Shown piece by piece: positions 24,807 to 28,203 of a DNA stretch of 64,000 nt (the stretch's first letter is position 1; each line of letters opens with the position of its first letter). This DNA is from Pirellula sp. (lineage in GTDB: Bacteria > Planctomycetota > Planctomycetia > Pirellulales > PNKZ01). The position numbers and the translations under genes were made by a program. The notes beneath the pieces are model-generated. The model ran no database searches. It was not told the DNA's origin and saw only the letters and a program-made list of their open reading frames with translations. Where the stretch lies: positions 124,001-188,000 of the forward strand of contig PNKZ01000004.1 in NCBI GenBank assembly GCA_013822735.1, given 5' to 3'.

Positions 24807-26324
24807 CTACTCCGGAATCGCATCCCCGCGCCGCACGACCTTCCCTTCCCAAACCGCTTCATCCGTTTTGGGATCGTACGTCAACACGCGCGACTTGCTC
24901 CCGGGCACCGGCGCCACGTCAATCTTCGGCAACCACTTGCGATGCTCGGCCAATTCGGTCGCGAACTTCGCATCGCCGGCGAGATTCATCCACTCGTTCG
25001 GATCGCTCCGGTGATCGTAAAGCTCTTCCATGCCGTCGGCGTAGTGAATGTAGCGCCAGGCGAGCGAGCGAACGGTGTGGTTCCCCTGGTTATGCGTCGT
25101 GATTGCGGGACGCGCACGAACGGTCGCCGCATCGCGCAATTGCGGGCCTAAGCTCAAGCCCTCGAGATCCGTGCGCGGCGTGAGTCCGGCGAGTTCGACG
25201 AGCGTCGGATACATGTCGAGCAATTCCGCCGGCTGCACACACTTCTGCCCGGCCCTTACGCCGGGACCCGCGAAAATCAGCGGCACGCGCGTCGAACGTT
25301 CCCACAGCGTGTTCTTGCCGGTAATGGCTTTCTCGCCGAGGTGCCAGCCGTGGTCTCCCCACAGCACGACGATCGTATCGTCCTCGTGCCCCGTCGCCTT
25401 CAGCGCATCGAGCACCCTGCCCACTTGCGCATCCGTGAAACTGACGCAGGCCAAATACGAGCGCACTAAATTGCGCCACTGGTTCACTTCGCGCACCCAC
25501 TTCAGGCGCGGTTCCGGCAGATCCCAATGCAAATACCACGAGAAGCGAGGCGTATCCTCCCGATCTCCATCGAGCACGGGCGGAAGTACGGAATCGTCGT
25601 CGGGATAAAGATCAAACCACTTCTGCGTCGCGTAACACGGCACGTGCGGCAAGAAGAAACCGGCCGCCAAAAAAAACGGCTCGTCCTTCGGCATCGCTTC
25701 GAGCTTCTCGATCGCCCAACTCGCGACTTGATAATCTCCCTTGTCTTCGTCGTTGTGCGGAAACACGCCCCAATCCATCAACGGATTGTTGCCCATCGGC
25801 GTCGGAGGAATCAACTTCGCCGCCGGCTTTACGCCGACGCCTCCCGCGTCGCCCCACACGTCAAACTCTTGCGCCTTGAGTTTCGGCCCACCCGCGCCGC
25901 CGTGATAGATCTTACCGACGGTATACGTCTTGTAGCCGTGCTTCTTGAAATGCTGCGGCAGCGCGACGCGCTCGGCCAAGGCGTCGACCGTGCGAAACCA
26001 GGGAGACAATCCGTAGACGCCGCTCGTCGAGGGCCGCAAGCCGAGCATCAGGCTCGTGCGCGACGGATTGCAAAGCGTCATCTGACAGTGCGCATTGGTA
26101 AACACCGTGCCGCGGGCCGCAAGCTTATCGATGTTCGGCGTCTTCACGAGCGGATGGCCGCCGAGGCAGCCGATCCAATCGTTCTGGTCGTCGATTGCCA
26201 AAAACAATACGTTCGGTCGCTTCGACGCCGCAGGAGCGGCTTCTTCCTTCGCGGCCGCGTGGCTCACCCACGCACACGCCGGCAACCATGCAGCGACAAA
26301 GAGTATCCACGTTCGCATCGCCAT
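24807..26324 (-). CDS. Secreted sulfatase, iduronate-2-sulfatase-like
   Basis: From the ATG at 26324 (AAGGAG 7 bases upstream) the protein has 505 residues. Its signal peptide is RTWILFVAAWLPACAWVSHA. The metal-binding start NVLFLAIDDQNDWIGCLGGHP is typical of iduronate-2-sulfatase-like members. The sulfatase motif C-N-P-S-R lies at 85-89, with Cys85 as the formylglycine precursor. VVLWGDHGWHLGEK gives the second metal site. The ending (TYDPKTDEAVWEGKVVRRG) is short and lacks the extra domain of the sulfatase at 7029. The natural substrate is not evident. It lies 70 bases downstream of the fused TrhO-RluA gene on the same strand. Confidence 0.93.
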   Translation of the reverse strand: MAMRTWILFVAAWLPACAWVSHAAAKEEAAPAASKRPNVLFLAIDDQNDWIGCLGGHPLVKTPNIDKLAARGTVFTNAHCQMTLCNPSRTSLMLGLRPSTSGVYGLSPWFRTVDALAERVALPQHFKKHGYKTYTVGKIYHGGAGGPKLKAQEFDVWGDAGGVGVKPAAKLIPPTPMGNNPLMDWGVFPHNDEDKGDYQVASWAIEKLEAMPKDEPFFLAAGFFLPHVPCYATQKWFDLYPDDDSVLPPVLDGDREDTPRFSWYLHWDLPEPRLKWVREVNQWRNLVRSYLACVSFTDAQVGRVLDALKATGHEDDTIVVLWGDHGWHLGEKAITGKNTLWERSTRVPLIFAGPGVRAGQKCVQPAELLDMYPTLVELAGLTPRTDLEGLSLGPQLRDAATVRARPAITTHNQGNHTVRSLAWRYIHYADGMEELYDHRSDPNEWMNLAGDAKFATELAEHRKWLPKIDVAPVPGSKSRVLTYDPKTDEAVWEGKVVRRGDAIPE

Positions 26325-26394
26325 CTTCGGGCTCCTTCGGTAGTCGAAAACTCTTCGCGCGTTCCGTGGTCGGCTTGCGCGAAGGCTCACTACG

Positions 26395-28203
26395 TTAGGC
26401 GCGCGACCTATCGCGACTCAAGGACCATTCAGGCCGGCGCGCAAAAAAAGTGACCCGTTCGCCGCTTAGCGGATGCTTAAACGAAAGCTGATATGCCAGC
26501 AAATTCAGCGGTGGATCGTCGACGTCGTTCGTCTGGACCGACCCCAGCGCACGGTCGGGCAAGTACGCCTGCTCACCGCAAATCGGCAGGCCTAAGTGCC
26601 ACAAATGCACCCGAATCTGATTCGTCCGCCCGGTCAACGGTCGCACTTCCAAGAGCGTCGTGCCGTCGTCGAACCGGTCGAGCACCGCGAACTTCGTGTG
26701 GGCCGACGCTCCGTTCTGCTCATCAATGCACCGCGAGCCCAACTCTCCCGCCTCGGTGCTGATGGGCGCCGTGCATTCGAACAGCTCTTCCGACGGGCTC
26801 CCCTGCACGCGCGCCAGATAGACCTTCTCGACATTGCCGCGCGCAAACTCCGGCTGCACGATGCCGGCGAAGTGTCGGGTACGGGCAAACACCACGACGC
26901 CTGCGGTGTTCGCATCGAGCCGATGCGCAGGCCTGGGCCGCTGCGGTGCGTAAACCGCATGCAGAAACGCCTGCAGCGTGTTGCGGTGAAACCGACCGCT
27001 TGGATGCAACGGCAACGGCGCAGGCTTGTCGACGACCACGATCGCTTCGTCTTCGTAGATGATCCGCACGTCGGCATTCACATCCGGCTCGATGGCCGCG
27101 GGCTCCAAGTTGAGAAACCGCTCCCCTGCCCTGACGACGCGTGATTCTTCGACCGGTCGACGATCGGCATCGAGCAATCGTCCCGACCGGCACGCCTCGC
27201 GCCATTCCGCTTCCGAGATACGGGGAAAGATCTCCGCGAGAAACTCGGTAAGGACGCGCCCTTCGGCCGCCGCCGGAATATTCAGCGGCCGATAGTTATC
27301 GCAAGCCGTGCTCCCCGGCAACGGATCGGTCGCCCGCCGGAGCGCCTCGTGACGTTCCACGAGTGTTTGCGCCCGTTGTGCTTCGGTCGACTGCATGCAG
27401 TATGGGCAGGCCGAACCTTTCACATAGCGCGGATCGAGTTGGTCCTCCGCCGTCAGCGGCGTGAGACAGGCGAAACATTGATCGCTTTCGGTTTCGCTCA
27501 AACCGGCGTCGAGCCCAACGCGTTGATCGAAGACGAAGCATTCGCCGTCGTAGTGCGCCGCGCCGCAATCCTCGAAGTATTTAAGGATGCCTCCTTCGAG
27601 TTGATAGATCTGCTCGAAACCTTCCCGCTCCATGTACGGCCCGGCCTTTTCGCAGCGGATGCCGCCGGTGCAAAACATCACCACCGGTTGCCGCTTCCAT
27701 TCTTCAGGCAACTGCGCGACAGCCCTCGGAAACTCGCGAAAGTGATCGATGCCGAGCGTGCGAGCGTTCTGAAACGTGCCGAGCTTGATCTCGTAGTCGT
27801 TGCGCGTATCGAGCAGCGTGACGGGGCGCCCTTCGTCGAGCCAGCGCTTGAGTTCGCGCGGGGCCAACTTCGGCGAGGTCCGCCGCGACGGGTCGATCCC
27901 CTCAACGCCGAAGGCGATAATCTCGCGCTTGATCCGGACCAGCATCCGGTTGAACGGCTGCCGCGCGCTCTCGCTTTCTTTGACCTCGAGCCCTGCCAAG
28001 CCCGGCAGCGAACGCAGCTCCGCCAAGAGCGTATCAACGCTCTCGCGAACGCCGGCGACAAAGAGATTTACCCCTTCGGTGCTGATGAGAATGGTGCCGC
28101 GCAGGCCCAACGGCTTGCAAAGATCGAGCAACCGCTTGCGCAGCGGCTTCAAATCCTCGAGCGGGGCAAACTTGTAGGCGGCGACATTGACGATCGGCGG
28201 CAT
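26395..28203 (-). CDS. Fusion of TrhO-type tRNA uridine hydroxylase (rhodanese) and RluA-type pseudouridine synthase
   Basis: The 602-residue protein joins two RNA-modifying enzymes. Residues 1-280 match TrhO (UPF0176): an acylphosphatase-like start ([18 protein letters not shown]), a rhodanese domain with [17 protein letters not shown], the active loop [15 protein letters not shown] with Cys178, and a Cys-rich tail ([18 protein letters not shown]). Residues 305-365 look like an S4-type RNA-binding segment ([19 protein letters not shown]). Residues 370-600 are an RluA-type synthase with [10 protein letters not shown], the catalytic Asp near residue 427 in [14 protein letters not shown] (usual form HRLDxxTSG), and [14 protein letters not shown]. 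TrhO makes 5-hydroxyuridine at tRNA position 34. The synthase target cannot be told. There is no stop or frameshift between the halves. Confidence 0.92.

Follow-up and report, generated by a model that had tools for sequence, protein, structure and literature searches.

The window, a stretch of 64,000 nucleotides from the genome of Pirellula sp. (Planctomycetota), harbors on its minus strand a single gene in which a tRNA U34 hydroxylase of the TrhO type is joined to an RluA-type pseudouridine synthase. It is near certain that this fusion exists in the window genome and in its relatives. It is proposed that the product is a bifunctional enzyme of the anticodon arm, in which the first half would form 5-hydroxyuridine at position 34 (ho5U34) and the second half would introduce pseudouridine into the same tRNAs; we give this reading, whose two activities, common substrate and target position are predicted, about an even chance of being correct.

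Table 1. Features of the fused gene; positions are those of the window.
Feature	Position	Strand	Basis
Fused gene, 602 codons and stop	26395..28203	-	Open frame
TrhO half, residues 1-272	27388..28203	-	NCBIfam TrhO and PRK05320 above cut-off; structure matches 4f67 and 9j5o
UPF0176_N acylphosphatase-like domain, residues 5-95	27919..28191	-	Pfam PF17773
Rhodanese domain, residues 115-209	27577..27861	-	Pfam PF00581
Active-site loop CTGGIRCE, residues 178-185	27649..27672	-	Invariant in 33/33 fused proteins
Four-Cys segment, residues 243-269 (C243, C246, C266, C269)	27397..27477	-	33/33; possibly zinc-ribbon-like
Linker, residues 270-303; predicted helix 273-292, invariant LPG 295-297	27295..27396	-	AlphaFold2 model, alignment
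S4-like region, residues ~304-376	27076..27294	-	TIGR00005/RluD model alignment; RluD 2ist match
Pseudouridine synthase catalytic half, residues 377-594	26422..27075	-	Pfam PF00849; RluA 2i82 Z 25.6
Catalytic motif HRLDANTAG with Asp430, residues 427-435	26899..26925	-	33/33 for H427, R428, L429, D430, T433, G435

Composition and conservation of the fused protein

The ORF listing and its translation gave one open frame of 602 amino acids, from ATG to stop with no internal stop codon, along which Pfam placed UPF0176_N (E 9.8e-26), Rhodanese (E 1.5e-9) and PseudoU_synth_2 (residues 388-534, E 4.5e-28, 98.8 bits against a cut-off of 26.8), in that order. The preliminary description had read this region as a natural fusion in one uninterrupted frame, with a complete TrhO half carrying Cys178 and a complete synthase half carrying the Asp of HRLDANTAG. 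The frame was confirmed, Cys178 was correctly placed, the catalytic residue is Asp430, and the two-domain protein is conserved, 33 fused homologues having kept the active-site motifs of each half; the four-Cys segment and the S4-like region ahead of the synthase are features beyond that description.

Conservation was evaluated on 33 distinct fused proteins, the partial fused frame L060 of genome G303 having been dropped beforehand. Invariant in all 33 were the C178-E185 loop, the four cysteines C243, C246, C266 and C269, the LPG of the linker, H427-R428-L429-D430, K460, Y462 and R526. As the fused frame is present in 33 distinct genomes, a frame or assembly artefact was ruled out, and the invariance of Cys178 and Asp430 excludes chance or a frame artefact. 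The same description had named separate production of the two halves as the case that would speak against a fusion. Met270, the sole methionine in the linker of the window protein, is a methionine in 1 of the 33 homologues, and hence no conserved internal ATG was seen in the linker.

The dN/dS ratios of seven close pairs (NG86) ranged from 0.035 to 0.174 in the TrhO half, from 0.047 to 0.201 in the synthase half and from 0.062 to 0.268 in the linker and S4-like region, ratios that are rough because some synonymous distances are near saturation. Both halves are under purifying selection. It was considered whether the synthase half could be catalytically dead and serve TrhO as an RNA-binding extension. 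No measured activity turned up for it among the titles and abstract openings found in searches of open-licence papers, and nothing direct speaks for a dead enzyme; the invariance of the HRLD residues, K460, Y462, R526 and others, together with the low dN/dS, makes this reading highly improbable.

The first half matched the NCBIfam TrhO model with 246.1 bits (cut-off 170) and the sulfurtransferase model PRK05320 with 334.5 bits (cut-off 331). Rhodanese_C (PF12368) scored 15.8 bits, short of the 26.9 required; nonetheless, the four cysteines are invariant. E. coli TrhO forms ho5U34 on tRNA and its CXGGXR loop is required for activity (PMC6599085); this loop is present as CTGGIRCE in all the fused proteins. 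Position 90 is R or K and position 92 is K in 33/33, residues that may correspond to K112 and R114 in the positively charged tRNA strand of E. coli TrhO. An AlphaFold2 model was built from the 33 aligned fused proteins (mean pLDDT 87.7, pTM 0.59), and owing to this pTM it leaves the mutual orientation of the two halves unset. Its first half aligned with two experimental structures of TrhO, namely 4f67 (Z 27.6) and 9j5o (Z 26.2), the latter described as TrhO with tRNA Ala.

The second half of the model matched RluA (2i82), and residues 304-600 aligned with full-length RluD (2ist) with Z 22.3 and an rmsd of 7.5. The alignments to the TIGR00005 and RluD models begin at residue 314. Pfam found no S4 domain in the fused protein, and the same search did detect S4 in both L002, another RluA-type protein of the window genome, and E. 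coli RluD; the match to 2ist supports an S4-like nature of the region ~304-376. The synthase half alone reached 193.8 bits against the TIGR00005 RluA subfamily model (cut-off 192.7) and the whole protein 191.0 bits. It fell below the cut-off of all four equivalog models: RluA (NF007543; 86.5 against 286 bits), RluC (83.8 against 378), RluD (82.2 against 351) and TruC (73.6 against 328). In the trees, the fused synthases and those of genomes G429, G540 and G537 formed one clade of 36 rows (support 100/98), separate from E. coli RluA, RluC, RluD and TruC. On the basis of these sequences, the synthase half is a clade of its own, an orphan within the RluA superfamily.

The main rival to a tRNA target is a role of the synthase half on 23S rRNA, comparable to that of RluC or RluD, the fusion merely joining two translation-related enzymes with different RNAs. 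The S4-like region precedes the catalytic domain and resembles that of the rRNA enzyme RluD, and the scores to the RluC and RluD models come close to that for RluA. At the threshold used, the window genome contains a single TrhO and, besides the fused gene, six RluA-type genes, none of them conspicuously RluC-like (the highest score being 135.6 against a cut-off of 378 bits). This last point is weak since none of the six reaches any of the four equivalog cut-offs: L005, which clusters with E. coli RluA (100/99), scores 213 of the 286 bits required by the RluA model, and L002 scores 233 of the 351 bits required by that of RluD. Against an rRNA target stand the formation of ho5U34 on tRNA by E. 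coli TrhO (PMC6599085), the description of 9j5o as TrhO with tRNA Ala, and the company of CmoB, in G537 also of TrhP, that standalone synthases of this clade keep. An rRNA target is rather doubtful, though it is the strongest of the rivals.

Distribution and evolution of the fusion

The fusion is concentrated in two phyla, Planctomycetota and Verrucomicrobiota. One match across both halves was found in at least 10 of 294 genomes of Planctomycetota, the phylum of the window, in at least 17 of 288 Verrucomicrobiota genomes and in at least 83 of 189 genomes of a single verrucomicrobial order, the last two genome sets overlapping. In two of the 83, roughly the first 70 residues are missing, and the count leaves out one further genome with the fusion split over two contigs. 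Among 299 Pseudomonadota genomes there was at least one, the search centre itself, a 'Proteobacteria' MAG. These numbers are lower bounds because few candidates were scored per genome (at most six in the verrucomicrobial order and at most four in the other sets). A pattern scan of a species collection identified 15 relatives, of which seven were full-length fusions, among them those of Lacipirellula limnantheis and of two isolates of Verrucomicrobium. With regard to a plasmid or phage origin, matches occurred in 186 plasmid records, but in no record did a single place reach 80% coverage of the query, and a pattern scan of viral contigs yielded no relatives.

Analysis of 27 fused loci, with flanks of up to ~5 kb (slightly longer in the window), revealed no widespread neighbour family, and therefore no other partner is suggested. 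The commonest family, by eye an ABC ATPase, occurred at 4 of the 27 loci, the fused gene and frames overlapping it being excluded. In the window, a frame on the minus strand (24807-26390), sulfatase-like by eye, begins 4 bases past the stop of the fused gene if read from its GTG start, and is not a recurring neighbour.

The two halves also exist apart. In G429, TrhO and synthase are encoded by adjoining genes with an overlap of at most 17 bases, which becomes a short gap when a later ATG is taken as the start; this is the only adjacent-gene pair among 13 wider TrhO neighbourhoods. A sequencing frameshift is an unlikely origin of this pair, as ~57 residues separate the aligned parts, against ~21 in the window protein. 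G537 and G540 carry the synthase as a standalone protein with HRLD kept, and the fusion is lacking in 13 close TrhO rows (L099-L109, L016 and L017, of which L017 stops at a contig edge and may be cut), which makes TrhO independent of the synthase. In the synthase tree the standalone synthases were placed beside row L093 (97/81), and in the TrhO tree the 13 unfused rows fell with 25 fused rows in one group of 38 (98/95). This placement suggests possible later losses of the fusion; AU tests did not exclude a topology uniting the fused proteins (p 0.108 for the synthase and 0.268 for TrhO), and for this reason later losses are not claimed.

The persistence of close unfused TrhO genes and of two standalone synthases implies that neither half physically needs the other. 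This would fit both halves being functional on unrelated sets of tRNAs, with the tether serving co-expression or stability only. The frequency of the both-half match in the verrucomicrobial order and the invariant linker LPG argue against such an arrangement, and it is considered unlikely.

Candidate tRNA substrates and the wobble-uridine pathway

In the preferred bifunctional reading, the rhodanese loop with Cys178 would use O2 to form 5-hydroxyuridine at U34 of tRNAs with U34 followed by purine 35, as expected from family membership. The synthase half, through Asp430, would isomerise another uridine in these tRNAs, with the anticodon arm as its most likely location, and the tRNA might be held for both steps by the S4-like region together with the TrhO half. 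By our reasoning, C5 of uracil takes part in both reactions, and the halves should therefore not modify the same nucleotide; action of both on one nucleotide was set aside on these chemical grounds.

The preliminary description had suggested that the synthase part may act on the same tRNA or stem-loop, giving a coupled modification enzyme. The idea of a shared tRNA is indirectly supported because the G429 genes adjoin and overlap and because the two genomes with a standalone synthase carry CmoB and, in one case, TrhP; the resemblance of the S4-like region to the rRNA enzyme RluD weighs against it, and thus it stands in part. CmoB (TIGR00452) exceeded its cut-off in 2 of 45 genomes in one set and in 3 of 59 in another, G537 and G540 being found in both. 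Matches below the cut-off (at most 46 bits) occurred in 42 more of the 45 genomes and in 13 of 14 controls besides E. coli, and are read as other methyltransferases. In none of the 51 fused genomes (33 in the first set and 18 more in the second) did CmoB exceed the cut-off.

G537, which belongs to the verrucomicrobial order, showed no TrhO match at E 1e-8 and encodes a full-length TrhP (G537:C10:28483-29724; 510 bits, 56% identity to E. coli), the sole full one in 24 genomes, the other TrhP matches being partial with at most 144 bits. The TrhO of G540 is divergent (35% identity) and unfused. The co-occurrence of a standalone synthase with CmoB suggests that the synthase belongs with wobble-uridine oxidation. 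The pattern in G537 and G540 is probably one evolutionary event, and as the two are sister rows it amounts to about one independent observation. The third CmoB genome, G978, is one of the 32 genomes with an unfused TrhO in the 59-genome set; its TrhO is divergent, it has no match to the fused-type synthase at E 1e-38, and it counts against a strict link between synthase and CmoB.

TrmR is a U34 methyltransferase. The methyltransferase family PF01596 had no match in the window genome and was above cut-off in 18 of the 45 genomes, most strongly (186 bits) in the unfused genome G557, counts that do not settle the presence of TrmR because the family is too broad. As a tentative extension, possible but doubtful, the synthase half may represent a new specificity for tRNAs with an oxidised wobble uridine. 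It would place a second anticodon-arm mark on the tRNAs of TrhO (or of TrhP and CmoB), one polypeptide setting a two-site wobble code where no CmoB was found, with ho5U34 perhaps the final base.

The tRNA survey of the window genome gave 79 distinct tRNA sequences from 153 predictions on overlapping stretches. With two dense tRNA arrays excluded, U32 was present in four of the six U34-purine35 tRNAs (Val, Thr, Pro and Ala, and absent in Ser and Leu) and in one of the seven other U34 tRNAs; these counts are compatible with position 32 as the target and are too small to decide. Position 32 may already be served, since L005, the expected Psi32 enzyme, groups with E. coli RluA. The two arrays (L214 1-3401, G000:C1:44600-48000; L215 1-1551, G000:C3:11600-13150) contain extra copies of many isotypes, with sequences mostly unlike those of the copies outside the arrays; that they stem from a mobile element is a guess.

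Relation to known enzymes

The first half resembles TrhO (YceA), the oxygen-dependent tRNA U34 hydroxylase, in its UPF0176_N and rhodanese domains, its CXGGXR loop and its NCBIfam TrhO score. The fused protein differs in the added C-terminal pseudouridine synthase and in the absence of CmoB above cut-off from the 51 fused genomes examined. The second half shares the catalytic fold and the HRLD motif with RluA, RluC, RluD and TruC and is set apart from them by its separate clade and by fitting none of their equivalog models. No TrhO-pseudouridine synthase fusion enzyme was indicated in the titles and abstract openings found in searches of open-licence papers, in agreement with the preliminary description, whose author knew of no characterised enzyme of this form.

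Two fusions of related kind have been described. TrcP of Vibrio cholerae joins an RluA-type synthase domain to a second RNA-modifying domain, a cytidine deaminase, both acting on one nucleotide at tRNA position 32 (PMC9553926), whereas the partner in the fused protein is TrhO and its N-terminal half does not have the cytidine deaminase fold. Gene fusions of yceA and trmR, which likewise join TrhO to another tRNA-modifying enzyme, occur in Phytophthora and Phaeodactylum (PMC6599085); the partner there is TrmR and here a pseudouridine synthase. TrcP is a precedent for an RluA-type domain in a two-step tRNA enzyme and yceA-trmR for a TrhO fusion. The window protein is a new architecture from known parts, a pairing that TrcP and yceA-trmR do not have and that InterPro or UniProt may list.

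The fusion physically connects two chemistries of RNA modification and provides, for an orphan synthase subfamily frequent in one verrucomicrobial order, a target that can be tested. It also raises the question of the final base at U34 in TrhO genomes without CmoB above cut-off, the window genome being in addition without a PF01596 match. Other extended TrhO frames were observed. In G760, ~357 in-frame residues with no Pfam match at E 0.1 precede TrhO (L112:1471-3405, minus strand). In G580, a TrhO of 529 amino acids in total runs in frame into a PAP2 phosphatase-like domain (L143:2482-4071, minus strand), possibly a different TrhO fusion.
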